NCBI GenBank assembly: GCA_030697175.1
Contig: JAUYQR010000003.1
Location: forward strand, 1 to 64,000
Direction of reading: 5' to 3'
DNA length: 64,000 bases
DNA from: Paracoccaceae bacterium
Lineage (GTDB): Bacteria; Pseudomonadota; Alphaproteobacteria; Rhodobacterales; Rhodobacteraceae
Below are positions 3,641 through 47,764 of the stretch, piece by piece. Position numbers and translations under genes: made by a program. The notes beneath the pieces were generated by a model. That model was not told the origin of the DNA and searched no databases. It worked only from the letters and a program-made list of their open reading frames with translations. The stretch's first letter is position 1, and every line of letters starts with the position of its first letter.

Positions 3641-5350
3641 TCAAGCAGAGACCTGTTCCCGCAGGATCGCGGCGGTCATCGAGACCATGAGGTAAATGCC
3701 AAGCATGATCAACATCGTGACCAGCGTATTCTCGAAGGCGCGGGGATAGGCCGGTTCGTCGGTGACGGTGGGGCTGACCGACAGCGACAGATAGCGCACC
3801 TGCCGGTTGGCCTCGGTGCGCGACACCTCCATCGCGGTCAGCGACTGGGCGAGGATCATCTGGCGGGTCTTGACGTCCGCTTCGGCCACCAGAAGTTCAC
3901 CCTGCACGCGGGCGAGGCTTTCGGTTTCGGCGCTGCCTTCGGTCATCTGGGCGCGCAGATCGGCGATCTGCGCCTCGAGCGTGGTGACGCGGCGTTTCAC
4001 CGGGTCCATCCGCGCCTGATTGGGCGAGGCGTTGGATTCCATCTGCGCCAGCGCAAGGCGGTCTTGCATGAGCTGGCCTTCTAGCGTGCTGATCTGGCCG
4101 GTGATCATCGCCACTTCAGTGGCCGAGGACAGCATCTTGAATTTTTCCTGCAACGCGATGAGGTTCATCTGCGACTGCTGCAGTTCCTGTTCCGCCGTCC
4201 CGTAGCTTTTGAGCGCGTCGCGCATCTGGTCTTCGCGCAGGCGTTGGGTCAGGTGGTCGACCTGTTCTTCGGCATAGGAAATGAGCTGGCTGGACCACGC
4301 GGCCGCAAGCGCCGGATCGGCGGCGACCACCTCCATCTTGATGATGCCTTCGGTCGGGTCGTAGGCGATCTTGACGAATTTCTTGTAGACCTTGTAGGCG
4401 GCCTCGGTCGTGGCGTCGGCGGCGAGGCGTTGCAGCGGGTCGATCGCGGGGGATTTGAAATGATCCTTGAAGCCCACGTCGGAATCGAGCCGCAGCATCG
4501 CGTCGCGCGATTGCAGATAGCCCTGCACGGCGATGCTGTCCTGCGAGGTGGCAAGGGCGGTGCCGGAAAACAGGCTGCTGAACCCGGCGGCGGCGGCGGG
4601 ACCGGCCTGCTGGATCACGAATTCCGACTTGGTGGCGTAAAGCGGCGTGGCGACGCGGTAGTAATACCAGCCGGCGACGATGGTGGGCAACAGCACGAAG
4701 ACGAACATCCGCGCGCAAAGCAGCGCCAGTTTGCGGCGGCGGCGGCGGGCGATATCCTGCTGCATGCGCAGGATTTCGGCGGCCTGGTTGACCTCGGCCC
4801 GCTGGTCGGGGGTGGGCAGGCGGATCGGCTGCACGTTCTGCGGCAGGCGCACGCCGTCACCGGGCAGGGCGGTCAGCGCACGGCTGCCGGCGGGGTTTGG
4901 GGCGGTGTCGTTGGCGGTGTCGTTGGCGGCGGGCGGAGGCGGCGTGGCGGCCTTCGGCTTGATCATGTCCAGCATCGAGGCGCGTTTGAACGGGTCGATC
5001 CCGGCGGCGCGCAACAGGCGGACAGCATCAAGATCGGACATCGGCTGCAGGTTCTGGCTTTGCGCCATGCGCCGGGCGGTGCGCAACTGCCGCCCGGTCA
5101 ACCCCTCGGCGGCGATGGCGGCAAGCGTGGCCTCGACCTCCGGATCGACGCGGGGCACCTTGGTCACCGACACGGTGCCGGTCTGGGCGGCGGGAACCGC
5201 GCGCGGGGTGGCGGTCGGGAACACGGTGTCGCCAAAGCCGTCCTGGTGGTTGTCAAACAGCATCTCGCCCGTCACCTGCGGCGCGCGCGGCGGCGGCACC
5301 GGATCGGTGCGGCGGATGTGAAAGCGGCTGGCCTTAGGTTTGGTAGTCAT
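3641..5350 (-). CDS. kpsE: Capsule polysaccharide export inner-membrane protein, KpsE/BexC/CtrB type
   Basis: This 569-residue polysaccharide co-polymerase-like protein has a first membrane helix at about 209-229, a large periplasmic region with coiled-coil segments (about 370-500) and a last helix near the C-terminus (about 540-562). That is the layout of KpsE/CtrB/BexC, which bridge the capsule ABC transporter to the outer-membrane exporter. It is longer than usual because of a roughly 200-residue cytoplasmic N-terminal extension, rich in Pro/Ala and containing an alpha-helical patch at about 75-130. It overlaps kpsT by 17 nt and is followed directly by kdsA. The family call is firm; the role of the extension is unknown. 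Confidence 0.85.
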   Translation of the reverse strand: MTTKPKASRFHIRRTDPVPPPRAPQVTGEMLFDNHQDGFGDTVFPTATPRAVPAAQTGTVSVTKVPRVDPEVEATLAAIAAEGLTGRQLRTARRMAQSQNLQPMSDLDAVRLLRAAGIDPFKRASMLDMIKPKAATPPPPAANDTANDTAPNPAGSRALTALPGDGVRLPQNVQPIRLPTPDQRAEVNQAAEILRMQQDIARRRRRKLALLCARMFVFVLLPTIVAGWYYYRVATPLYATKSEFVIQQAGPAAAAGFSSLFSGTALATSQDSIAVQGYLQSRDAMLRLDSDVGFKDHFKSPAIDPLQRLAADATTEAAYKVYKKFVKIAYDPTEGIIKMEVVAADPALAAAWSSQLISYAEEQVDHLTQRLREDQMRDALKSYGTAEQELQQSQMNLIALQEKFKMLSSATEVAMITGQISTLEGQLMQDRLALAQMESNASPNQARMDPVKRRVTTLEAQIADLRAQMTEGSAETESLARVQGELLVAEADVKTRQMILAQSLTAMEVSRTEANRQVRYLSLSVSPTVTDEPAYPRAFENTLVTMLIMLGIYLMVSMTAAILREQVSA

Positions 5351-6100: not shown

Positions 6101-7336
6101 TCACCCCGGTGGCATCCGCGCATCGGTGGGGCGCAGGCGGCGGGCGAGAACAATCGCGGCCGGGCCGGCAAGAAGGCTGATGGCAAGGCCAAGGCGGGCT
6201 GCTTCCTGCATCGCGCCACCGGGAAGAGCCAGATCGAGCGTCAGGATCGGCACGGTGAAGCCCATGCCCATGATGACCGCGATGACGATCAGATCGCGCA
6301 AGCCCACCCCATCGGGCAGACGCAGGCGCAGCACAAAGGCCAGACCCACGCCACCGATCAGCATGCCCAGCGGACGACCGATCCAGACCGAGGCGAGGAG
6401 TGTCACGGTGGTTGGCGCGAAGGCGTGCAGGTCGACGCCGCCGCGGGTGAGCCCGAAAGCGAAGAGGACGACGGTCATCGGGCGCACCAAGCCCTGCGCG
6501 AGCCGGTTCAGCGGATCACGGAGGTAGGCCTCGGCCTCGGCGAAGAGGCCGAAGGTGCGGTCGGCATGGGCGACGGCGGGGATCACCGGCAGGAGGCCAA
6601 GCGCGGGCGGCAGGCCGGAGGCGGCAACCCCGATCCAGGACACAAGCCCCGCAAGCGCGTAGGGCCACAGCAGGAGCGTGGCGCGGCGGCGGCGTTCGCC
6701 CGCGTCAGGTGGCGGGTGGCGACCGTAGAGCGCCCAGACGCCGACCGAGGCGGCCACGGGCAGCGCCAGCCAGAAAAGGCGTGGCGTGAGGTCGGGCAGG
6801 GTGAGCCCGACGAGGACGAGGGCCGCGATGTCGGCGGCGATGGTCAGAAGCAGGAGGAGATGCAGCGCCGGGTGACCCGGCCCGAACGCCCGCCGCCCGA
6901 TCAGGTAGGCAAGCGTGACATCGCCGGCGAGGGGAACGGTCCAGCCGGTGCCGAAGCTGGCTTCCTCGGCCGTCTCGATCAGGGTTCCGACGGCGAGCCA
7001 CATCAGGGCAGCCCCCGCCAGCCCCCCGAGGCTGAGACCGAGGGGCAGGAGCGATTGCCCCGCGCGCAGGGCGCCGCGTTCGAGGACCAGCGCCTCCCAC
7101 AGCTCTTTGCCGATGAAGGCGAGAAACAGCGGCATCAGCACATGCGAGACCAGAAGGAACGGCGTCAGGCTGACCGGCAGCGCGGCCATCCAGTGCGGCA
7201 GGTCGATGTCGAGCAGCCGGAACTCGATCGCGTCATAATAGCTGGCCGGAGCGAGATTGACCCAGACCGTGGCGATCAGCGCGCCGCCAAGAAGCGCGGT
7301 GGCGAAGGTGCTGACGAAGGGCGAGACGCGGTACAT
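6101..7336 (-). CDS. Divergent NhaA-family Na+/H+ antiporter
   Basis: This 411-residue, multi-helix protein aligns by eye with NhaA along its length: GWTVPLAGDVTLAYLIG for helix IV, a TIAADIAAL segment for helix V, WIGRPLGM for helix X and VIMGMGFTVPI for helix XI. The helix IV aspartate (D139) and the second helix V aspartate (D169) are kept. The first helix V aspartate (Escherichia coli D163) is alanine 168 and the helix X lysine (K300) is arginine 321. NhaA proteins exchange Na+ or Li+ for protons at the inner membrane. The changed charge pair makes ion specificity and stoichiometry uncertain. It sits 113 nt upstream of kpsT on the same strand. Confidence 0.8.
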   Translation of the reverse strand: MYRVSPFVSTFATALLGGALIATVWVNLAPASYYDAIEFRLLDIDLPHWMAALPVSLTPFLLVSHVLMPLFLAFIGKELWEALVLERGALRAGQSLLPLGLSLGGLAGAALMWLAVGTLIETAEEASFGTGWTVPLAGDVTLAYLIGRRAFGPGHPALHLLLLLTIAADIAALVLVGLTLPDLTPRLFWLALPVAASVGVWALYGRHPPPDAGERRRRATLLLWPYALAGLVSWIGVAASGLPPALGLLPVIPAVAHADRTFGLFAEAEAYLRDPLNRLAQGLVRPMTVVLFAFGLTRGGVDLHAFAPTTVTLLASVWIGRPLGMLIGGVGLAFVLRLRLPDGVGLRDLIVIAVIMGMGFTVPILTLDLALPGGAMQEAARLGLAISLLAGPAAIVLARRLRPTDARMPPG

Positions 7337-7378
7337 GGGTGGGGTCCGTCGGTTGGCGTCGAGCGTGGGGCAGGCGGC

Positions 7379-7431
7379 CGGAGGGTTTCACACCCTCCGG
7401 ACCTCCCGTGGGATATTTGGCGAAGGGGAAG
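7379..7431. repeat. Dispersed intergenic element (hairpin plus GGATATTTGG), copy 1
   Basis: A hairpin with arms CGGAGGGT and ACCCTCCG is followed by CCCGTGGGATATTTGGCGAAG. The same arrangement occurs at 24362-24412 and 46334-46385, with a weaker copy at 43475-43527, always in this orientation. It lies between the divergent antiporter and glycosylase genes. Confidence 0.65.
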
Positions 7432-7666
7432 TCATGCGCGGCATTAGACCCTATTGCGCGCTTGTCGCAATGGGTGGGGTTGCGGTGGTGTGCGGGGGCA
7501 ACGATGCTTTGGGGATGGAGATTGTGGACCAAATCCGGGCGTGCCGTCTGTGCGCGGCGCGGTTCGCGGCGACCGTGACTGCGCATGAGCCAAGGCCAGT
7601 GGCGTGGTATCGGCGCGGTTTCGGCGAGGTTTCGGCAGGTGATCGCGGGGCAGGCGCCGGGTCTGC

Positions 7667-7736
7667 GGGTGCATGACGGCGGGTGCATGACGGCGGGTGC
7701 ATGGCGGCGGGTGCATGACGGCGGGTGCATGACGGC
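7667..7736. repeat. Five tandem copies of a 14-bp unit inside the glycosylase pseudogene
   Basis: The unit is GGGTGCATGACGGC. Copies one, two, four and five are identical; the third has one A-to-G change. One copy encodes the expected RVHDGG segment. The four extra copies add 56 nt and shift the frame by two. Confidence 0.95.
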
Positions 7737-8105
7737 GGGCGACCCTTTACCGACCGGTCGGGCGAGCGGTTGCGCGACTGGATCGGGGGGGGCGAGGCCG
7801 ATCTTCATGACCGAGGCCGCGTGGCGGTGGTGCCGATGGCGTTCTGCTTTCCCGGCCATGATGCAAAAGGGGCGGACCTGCCGCCGCCGCCCGTTTGCGC
7901 CGCGAGGTGGCGGGGGCGGGTGATGGCGGGCCTGCCCGAGGTGCGCCTGATGCTGGCGGTGGGCGGTGCCGCGATCCGGTGGCCTCCGGGCGCGCGCGAT
8001 GTGGCGGAAACCGTGGCGGATTGGCGCGGGTTTGCAGCGCGCGGCGTGTTTCCCTTGCCGCATCCGTCGTGGCGCAATACCGGGTGGCTGAAGCGGCACC
8101 CGTGG

Positions 8106-8133
8106 TTCGAGGCGGAGCTTTCGAGGCGGAGCT
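8106..8133. repeat. Perfect 14-bp tandem duplication inside the glycosylase pseudogene
   Basis: The unit TTCGAGGCGGAGCT occurs twice in a row. With one copy the reading frame runs from the PWFEAEL segment into VPELRLAVREV. With two it shifts and loses the normal C-terminus. Confidence 0.95.
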
Positions 8134-8171
8134 GGTGCCGGAATTGCGCCTGGCGGTGCGGGAGGTGATGG

Positions 8172-8960
8172 ATGGCTGATGTTGTGACCCTGCTGGACGC
8201 GGCCCATGCCGCTGTGTCCGCCGATCCCGAAAACGACGCGCTGCGGCTGCGGTTCTACGAGCGGTTGGCGGATGGCGAGATGATCCTGTTGCTGGAGCGG
8301 GAGGTTTCGGGCGGGCAGGTGGAACCGCGGGTGTTCGATCTGGAAGGCGGGCCGGTGGTGCTGGTCTTTGACCGCGAGGAGCGGTTGGCAAGTTTTACCG
8401 GCGGGATCGCGCCCTATGCAGCGCTGCCGGGGCGGGTGATTGCGGGGATGCTGAAGGGGCAGGGCATCGGGCTGGGGGTGAACCTTGGCGTGGCGCCGTC
8501 GTCGATGCTGCTGTCCGCCGAGGCGCTGGACTGGCTGGCGATGGCGCTGGAGACGGGGCCCGAAGCGGCGGAGGGGAAACCGGAGACGTTTCATGCGCCA
8601 AAGGGGTTGCCGGAGGCGTTGTTGACGGGCCTTGACGCGAAGCTGGCCAAGGCGGCGGGGCTGGCGTCTGGTGCTGTGCTGGCGGGCGTGAGTTATGCGG
8701 GCGGGCGGCGCGGCCATCTGCTGGCGTTTCTGGACGCCGCACCGGGGGCGGAGGAGGCGCTGGCGCGGGCGGTCGGCGAGGCGCTGGTGTTTTCAGGCGT
8801 GGAGGCAGGCGAGCTGGACGTGGCGTTCCTGCGCACGGGCGAGCCGGGAGTGGCCGCGATGTCGCGGGTGGGCCTGCGGTTCGACCTGCCGGAGCCGGAG
8901 CTGCCGGAGGCGCCCGCAGCGCCGGGGATGCGGCCCGATCAGCCGCCGAAACTGCGCTGA
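8172..8960 (+). CDS. SseB-family protein
   Basis: The 262-residue soluble protein has an SseB N-terminal domain (about residues 5-125): DALRLRFYERLADGEMILLLE, then FDLEGGPVVLVFDREERLASFTG, with a longer C-terminal portion like the SseB C-terminal domain. SseB takes its name from enhanced serine sensitivity in Escherichia coli, and its molecular role is poorly defined. The start overlaps the end of the broken glycosylase gene by 8 nt, so the two were probably translated together before that gene decayed. Family assignment is reasonable; function is not established. Confidence 0.75.
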   Translation: MADVVTLLDAAHAAVSADPENDALRLRFYERLADGEMILLLEREVSGGQVEPRVFDLEGGPVVLVFDREERLASFTGGIAPYAALPGRVIAGMLKGQGIGLGVNLGVAPSSMLLSAEALDWLAMALETGPEAAEGKPETFHAPKGLPEALLTGLDAKLAKAAGLASGAVLAGVSYAGGRRGHLLAFLDAAPGAEEALARAVGEALVFSGVEAGELDVAFLRTGEPGVAAMSRVGLRFDLPEPELPEAPAAPGMRPDQPPKLR

Positions 8961-22591: not shown

Positions 22592-22737
22592 CGTGCGGTT
22601 CCCCCCGGTGCCATACCCGGTGCCATACAGGCGGCGCAGGCGTGTCGCGTCAATCCCGCAAATCGACGGCAGCCGAAGTCGAACGGGGCGCACGGACCCG
22701 GACTGCCGACTCCGCCCCTGGTCAGGCCGAGGCGGCG

Positions 22738-46385: not shown

Positions 46386-46420
46386 CCGATCCGGGCTTTC
46401 AGACTTGGTAGAGCCGCAGC

Positions 46421-46460
46421 TTTGTAAATTGGCTTTGTAAATTGTGGGGCGGGCTGTAAA
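46421..46460. promoter_or_regulatory. TTTGTAAA direct repeats upstream of the ScfR-type gene
   Basis: TTTGTAAATTG occurs at 46421-46431 and 46434-46444, a 13-bp period, and CTGTAAA follows at 46454-46460. Known ScfR-family regulators bind related paired TTTGCAAA-type boxes, so this is probably an autoregulatory site. Confidence 0.65.
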
Positions 46461-46486: not shown

Positions 46487-47764
46487 ATGCCGCTGTCTGC
46501 CCTTACCGGAACGAGGTTGCGCGAGCGGCGGCTGGCGGCTGGCCTGCGGCAAGCCGATGTCGCGGCGACGGTGGGCATCTCGGCCTCCTACCTCAACCTG
46601 ATCGAGCATAACCGGCGGCGGGTGTCAGGGCAGATGCTGGACCGGTTGGGGGCGGCACTGGGGTTGGAGCGGACGGCGTTTTCCGCAGGCCGGGAGGCCG
46701 CGCTTCTGGACGATCTGCGCGCGGCCGCGGCGGCGTCGGAGGGGGCGGGGGCCGAGGTCGAGCGGCTGGAGGAGTTTGTTGGCCGCTATCCGGGCTGGGC
46801 GGTTCTGGTGGCCGGGCAGCATGGCCGCGTGATGCGCCTGGAGCGGGCGCTTGCGGCGTTGAACGACCGCGTGACGCATGATCCGCATCTGAGCCACGCG
46901 CTGCATGAGGTGCTGTCTGCACTGTCCTCGGTCCGCTCCACGGCGGCGATCCTTGCGGAGACCGAAGATCTGGAGCCCGACTGGCGCGAGCGGTTCCACC
47001 GCAACCTGCATCAGGACAGCGAGCGGATGGCGGGGGGCGCCGAGGCGCTGGTGGCCTATCTTGATGCCGGATCGGGGGCGGCGGACGAGGGCTTTCTGGC
47101 ACCGCAGGAGGAGATGGAAAGCTGGCTTCGGTCGCGCGACTGGCAGTTCGGCGACGAGGAGTTGCGCCACGGCGTGGCAGGTGAGGTGGCGGGCCTGGCC
47201 TCCAGCGCCGCGCGGGTGCTGGCGGCGGGGCATGTGGCACGGGCGGCACTTGATGCGCGCGCCATGCCGAGGGCAGCGTTCGTTGCGGCGTGGCAGGCGA
47301 CGGGACCGGACCCGCTGGCCCTGGCGGAGCGGTTGGGTGTCGGGGTGGCGGCGGTGATGCGGCGGCTGGCGGCGCTGGCTGAGGCGAAGCTCGGGCTGGT
47401 GGTGTGCGATGCGTCAGGCACGCTGACGTTTCGCAAGCCCTCGCCGGGGTTCCAGCTTCCACGCTTTGGGGCGGCCTGTCCGTTGTGGCCGCTTTATGCA
47501 GCGCTTGGGCGACCGATGCAGCCGATCGAGGCGGTGGTGGAGATGGCCGGGCAGACCGGCGCGCGGCACCGGGTGATCGCGTATTGCGAGACGCGCCACC
47601 CCGCGGGCCTGCGCGGGCCGGAACTGCGCGAGGCGTCGATGCTGATCCTGCCCCTCGCCGGGCGCGAGGGGGCGGCGCTGCGGGTTGGGTCGACCTGCCG
47701 GATCTGCCCACAGGCCGATTGCCCGGCACGGCGCGAACCGTCGATCTTGACCGAGGCGGTATGA
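46487..47764 (+). CDS. ScfR-family (short-chain fatty acyl) XRE-type transcriptional regulator
   Basis: The 425-residue protein has an N-terminal XRE helix-turn-helix (GTRLRERRLAAGLRQADVAATVGISASYLNLIEHNRRRV) and the long ScfR ligand-binding portion. It ends in a cysteine-containing motif, GSTCRICPQADCPARREPS. ScfR proteins such as PccR, MccR and RamB sense short-chain acyl-CoA intermediates and control acetate, propionate or methylmalonyl pathways. TTTGTAAA repeats precede it. Its stop overlaps the frame of the next gene, a receiver, linking it to a symporter-type kinase. Confidence 0.87.
   Translation: MPLSALTGTRLRERRLAAGLRQADVAATVGISASYLNLIEHNRRRVSGQMLDRLGAALGLERTAFSAGREAALLDDLRAAAAASEGAGAEVERLEEFVGRYPGWAVLVAGQHGRVMRLERALAALNDRVTHDPHLSHALHEVLSALSSVRSTAAILAETEDLEPDWRERFHRNLHQDSERMAGGAEALVAYLDAGSGAADEGFLAPQEEMESWLRSRDWQFGDEELRHGVAGEVAGLASSAARVLAAGHVARAALDARAMPRAAFVAAWQATGPDPLALAERLGVGVAAVMRRLAALAEAKLGLVVCDASGTLTFRKPSPGFQLPRFGAACPLWPLYAALGRPMQPIEAVVEMAGQTGARHRVIAYCETRHPAGLRGPELREASMLILPLAGREGAALRVGSTCRICPQADCPARREPSILTEAV

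Follow-up and report, generated by a model that had tools for sequence, protein, structure and literature searches.

The window analysed here is a stretch of 64,000 nucleotides from a nearly complete genome of 3.67 Mb in 24 contigs, whose relatives are Rhodobacteraceae (Tabrizicola, Rhodobacter and similar). Between a minus-strand gene, which we recognised by eye and take to encode an NhaA-type antiporter, and an intact gene with an SseB domain lies the remnant of a gene of the uracil-DNA glycosylase (UDG) superfamily (Table 1). To locate its parts, a profile was built from 105 relatives, and it matches the remnant as four pieces in three frames. The three frame changes coincide with an 11-bp near-repeat, a five-copy 14-bp array and a two-copy 14-bp array, respectively. 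This comparison with orthologues bears out the sequence-only reading, which had described a UDG-family gene with a change of frame at each of three repeats. The frame of piece A closes at a TGA at 7674, and its open reading frame covers 7257-7676.

Table 1. Features of the broken gene, its neighbours and further duplications (positions in the window unless a contig is named).
Feature	Position	Strand	Frame	Details
Presumed NhaA-type antiporter gene	6101-7336	-		Neighbour of the remnant
UDG-superfamily gene remnant (PF03167)	7515..8179	+	Three frame changes	Pfam UDG match and piecewise profile match
Piece A	~7518..7616	+	0	N-terminus with CxxC (CRLC); profile 3-35, E 2.5e-11
11-bp near-repeat	7601..7640	+	0 to 1	TRF period 11, 3.7 copies, 86% match
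Piece B	~7603..7683	+	1	GQAPG motif; profile 28-54, E 6.8e-6
14-bp array, five copies of CGGGTGCATGACGG	7666..7735	+	1 to 0	TRF 7665-7739 with partial copies, score 143
Piece C	7722..8120	+	0	Most of the glycosylase domain including HPSWRN; profile 49-184, 212 bits
14-bp exact duplication, two copies of TTCGAGGCGGAGCT	8106..8133	+	0 to 2	No microhomology
Piece D	~8108..8170	+	2	C-terminal tail; profile 176-196, E 0.002
SseB-domain gene	8172-8960			Intact; other flank of the remnant
12-bp exact in-frame duplication	4901..4929	-		Inside 569-aa gene 3641-5350
12-bp exact duplication	22604..22628			Inside a called gene
13-bp exact duplication GCTTTGTAAATTG	46419..46444	+		Intergenic; another product of the 10-17 bp duplication process
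Two-Ku NHEJ cluster	L287 and L286 (G000:C4:23690-27781)			ku, presumed ligD, second ku on the opposite strand; two Ku by family search

The region 7725-8167 matches the Pfam UDG domain (PF03167) with 41.4 bits at a cut-off of 24.3, and no single open frame in 7515-8179 spans the full domain, which is distributed over the four pieces in three frames. An intact relative (L003) scores 18.8 bits against the NCBIfam model for UDG family 4 (TIGR00758, cut-off 125.3) and 14.6 bits against the model for UdgX (TIGR03914, cut-off 189.95). Because these scores lie far under the cut-offs, the family is, judged by its sequences, a branch separate from family 4 and UdgX, and its members are putative glycosylases. 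The nearest solved sequence to an intact relative is an uncharacterised protein (3ikb_A, E 1e-35), and uracil-DNA glycosylase 1ui0 is also near (E 2e-7). The gene thus shares its domain with UDG families 4 and 5 and UdgX, but unlike in those families the domain gene is broken here.

The gene is shared by 251 of the 295 sampled genomes of the family, and among the matches listed the relatives' copies have no in-frame stops. In the largest piece, two of 44 otherwise invariant residues are altered, which is within the range of intact relatives. Such limited decay by substitution indicates that the loss of the gene is recent, and 7515-8179 is best read, as far as its sequence tells, as a pseudogene whose conserved UDG-superfamily protein was lost recently. 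That a DNA repair gene had been hit was regarded as notable in the sequence-only reading. However, a second UDG-superfamily gene is intact elsewhere in the genome and the duplications are spread over the sampled genome; therefore the target is probably incidental.

The repeats inside the gene differ in kind. The W and GQAPG are spaced 43 bp apart in this gene, as against 33 bp in relatives, so that the net gain at 7601-7640 is 10 bp and the near-repeat is not a simple 11-bp duplication; it is a degenerate repeat whose origin could differ. In the five-copy array all copies but the third are identical; copy 3 carries a single difference (7704 A>G) that converts TGA to TGG at 7702-7704, with stops remaining at 7674, 7688, 7716 and 7730. 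Both ends of this array carry GCGGG, a microhomology of 5 bp. The arrays add 56 bp and 14 bp, both 2 mod 3, which matches the observed frame changes. Thus, for both 14-bp arrays the arithmetic bears out the earlier claim that reduction to a single copy restores the local frame, while the near-repeat with its net 10 bp falls outside it, and the description of both arrays as exact applies to the two-copy array and not to copy 3 of the other. No exact tandem with a period of at least 12 appeared in 20 third-order Markov shuffles of the window, so that chance does not account for the arrays.

Similar duplications are found throughout the sampled genome. Beyond the window, 0.80 Mb of the same genome was sampled as arbitrary stretches (0.864 Mb in total, about 24% of the genome), and 1.386 Mb from ten related genera (40-200 kb each) served as comparison; coding and non-coding DNA were separated by a home-made gene caller trained on recognised genes, gene edges being counted as non-coding. 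In non-coding and edge DNA, 26 exact tandems of 10-17 bp were found in 0.085 Mb, versus eight in 0.153 Mb of the relatives (p 1.6e-6), which corresponds to 305 and 52 per Mb. Coding DNA contained 26 in 0.778 Mb, versus seven in 1.233 Mb (p 3e-6), or 33 and 5.7 per Mb. The density ratios are 5.8 for non-coding and 5.9 for coding DNA, and the excess persists once the window is left out; one stretch (L171-L172) is dense and holds six of the 26 non-coding arrays. The nearest sampled genus (G022, PolA 82% identical) has one such duplication in 0.186 Mb. The range of sizes is narrow: period 9 shows no excess (45 in 0.864 Mb and 61 in 1.386 Mb, p 0.22) and none of the 26 non-coding arrays in the sampled genome has a period above 17 bp. 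In the relatives, sizes of 10-15 bp occur as here at lower density. Therefore, the process looks general, and in this genome it either runs at a higher rate or leaves products that persist longer. Among the possibilities raised from the sequence alone, this roughly sixfold excess supports decay marked by a distinctive mutational process, and the process is genome-wide and not peculiar to 7515-8179. The literature searched contained no survey of such duplications (10-17 bp) in the Rhodobacteraceae, though one may exist.

Inside genes the duplications are strongly biased towards lengths that keep the frame: 25 of the 26 coding tandems of 10-17 bp are multiples of three, compared with 11 of 26 outside genes (Fisher p 4e-5), which indicates that selection has filtered real duplications. 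In 0.864 Mb, 8106-8133 is the only frame-shifting exact tandem that lies wholly within a called gene; a few others (L147, L153, L170) merely touch gene edges. When in-frame arrays were compared with orthologues, of which few were true orthologues, the 12-bp array L153:28-51 aligned without a gap, and some 12-bp coding tandems are thus chance repeats and not duplications.

Two explanations of the broken gene can largely be set aside on this evidence. The assembly is split into 24 contigs and the array lengths are known from it alone, so that the arrays might be imagined as artefacts of assembly or sequencing. Yet an artefact would not favour frame-preserving lengths within genes (25 of 26, against 11 of 26 in non-coding DNA), arrays of 28-75 bp are short enough to be spanned by ordinary reads, and point mutations are present in array copies; an artefact is therefore very improbable. 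Because coding duplications are nearly all multiples of three, assembly error is also unlikely as a general cause of the duplications, though in 7515-8179 alone it may have played a part. Phase variation, in which the five-copy array would toggle the gene on and off, had been suggested from the sequence as well, and each 14-bp copy does shift the reading frame. Only one base in the array is substituted, and with it the frame coming in from the GQAPG motif (frame 1) loses its one stop. The array may once have been readable, but this is no more than a hint, since by our count eight of the 225 possible single substitutions would have had this effect. Only a start at 7515 would include the CxxC motif, however, and from there the frame runs into the TGA at 7674 in copy 1 at any copy number, and two more frame changes fall outside the five-copy array. 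No copy number opens the gene, the array alone cannot be a switch, and phase variation is hardly to be credited. The status of a contingency gene was rejected on the same ground, as the full reading frame stays closed however many copies the array has. Contingency loci such as the tetranucleotide repeats of Haemophilus (PMC2651432) likewise have a frame-shifting tandem array inside a gene; the locus differs from them in that its copy number never opens the gene from its start.

The junctions point to how the duplications may form. Among 33 two-copy arrays, 61% have microhomology of at least 3 bp, versus 10% at random positions, and 39% have at least 5 bp, versus 2% expected; about a fifth, including 8106-8133, have none. 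This excess is the pattern expected of slippage or flap misligation. Most duplications would thus arise between short direct repeats (ABA to ABABA), either by strand slippage or because a displaced flap is misligated, and further copies would be added later by slippage within the existing units. In coding DNA they would persist only if in frame or once the gene no longer matters. The five-copy array, with GCGGG at both ends, fits ABA to ABABA, and 8106-8133 does not. Insertions of this form have been described for rad27-deleted yeast (PMC5677150), and the flap-type signature of that mutant, duplications bounded by short direct repeats, is seen here at 61% against the 10% expected. As in yeast deficient in Rad27/FEN1, the duplications are head-to-tail and spread over the genome; unlike there, the organism is a bacterium, the 10-17 bp range (none of the 26 non-coding arrays being longer) is narrower than the events of up to 100 bp in the yeast, and the 5'-nuclease of PolA, the counterpart of FEN1, is intact at the domain level. 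In bacteria, short duplications in penA of Burkholderia thailandensis are in part also bounded by direct repeats of 3-8 bp (PMC4169377). Those were selected events of 9-60 bp in a single gene, whereas the excess in this lineage is unselected and genome-wide. We consider it probable that the gene was inactivated by short tandem duplications from a genome-wide, lineage-specific process that makes head-to-tail copies of 10-17 bp, and that it is a recent pseudogene.

Formation might also be ordinary and only the removal slow, weaker collapse by deletion slippage allowing duplications to accumulate and grow. Arrays exceeding two copies, and reaching nearly ten, account for nearly half of the exact runs, while the runs in relatives mostly have two or three, and the 10-15 bp sizes occur in the relatives too, less densely. 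Slow removal should, however, raise neighbouring periods as well, and period 9 is not raised; we regard it as rather unlikely, slightly more so than end joining (NHEJ). The genome has two Ku genes flanking a gene that, recognised by eye from its sequence, is presumably LigD. With nicks 10-17 bp apart on opposite strands, fill-in by the LigD polymerase and joining by Ku and LigD would duplicate the protruding segment. When protruding ends are joined in mouse cells, the protruding segment is indeed tandemly duplicated (PMC5730883), and the narrow size range could have this origin. NHEJ would leave junctions free of microhomology, and the fifth or so of arrays without it, 8106-8133 among them, suit this expectation. 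Most two-copy arrays do not, since they have microhomology of at least 3 bp at six times the random expectation, and in the mouse study microhomology accompanied nearly every duplication that arose independently of Ku (PMC5730883). NHEJ is therefore an unlikely main source.

As for a genetic cause of slippage or flap misligation, several candidates were rejected. Loss of the PolA 5'-nuclease is not indicated, as the domain is present in an open frame of 1057 aa with no excess of odd residues. RecJ, XseA (the large subunit of ExoVII) and MutS are likewise all present and open; a split match to xseA proved to be one open gene of 528 aa with no strong tandem array within it. With all four in place, no genetic cause was identified. 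Downstream of xseA (L283:3527-3596), directly after the end of an open reading frame, there is a 13-bp array of 5.3 copies with 94% match.

Bacterial mutators mostly raise base changes or simple-repeat slippage. It is conceivable, though we hesitate to call it probable, that the lineage is by nature a mutator for one narrow class of change, the tandem duplication of 10-17 bp, through changed lagging-strand flap processing or end joining, which would give its proteins in-frame insertions of 4-5 residues and cost it dispensable genes by out-of-frame events. If so, a wild lineage with one raised class of duplication would serve as a natural experiment on the formation and control of short tandem duplications in bacteria, questions so far studied in detail chiefly in yeast and mammalian cells. 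Such a lineage would also provide a steady supply of in-frame insertions for protein evolution, and would caution against taking frameshifted genes for assembly errors.

Some further arrays were observed. The densest region seen is a stretch of 3.2 kb with about ten different short tandem arrays, of periods 11-18 and 38 (L171:14913-18107; G000:C14:194913-198107). At the edge of a called gene on another contig, a 12-bp array of CATCACGCGGGG with 6-10 copies (L181:16746-16873; G000:C24) contains the longest exact run found, 79 bp. In the window, the intergenic 13-bp duplication lies just upstream of a gene for a helix-turn-helix regulator (46487-47764); its unit holds the palindrome-like TTTGTAAA, and the duplication may have doubled an operator site.
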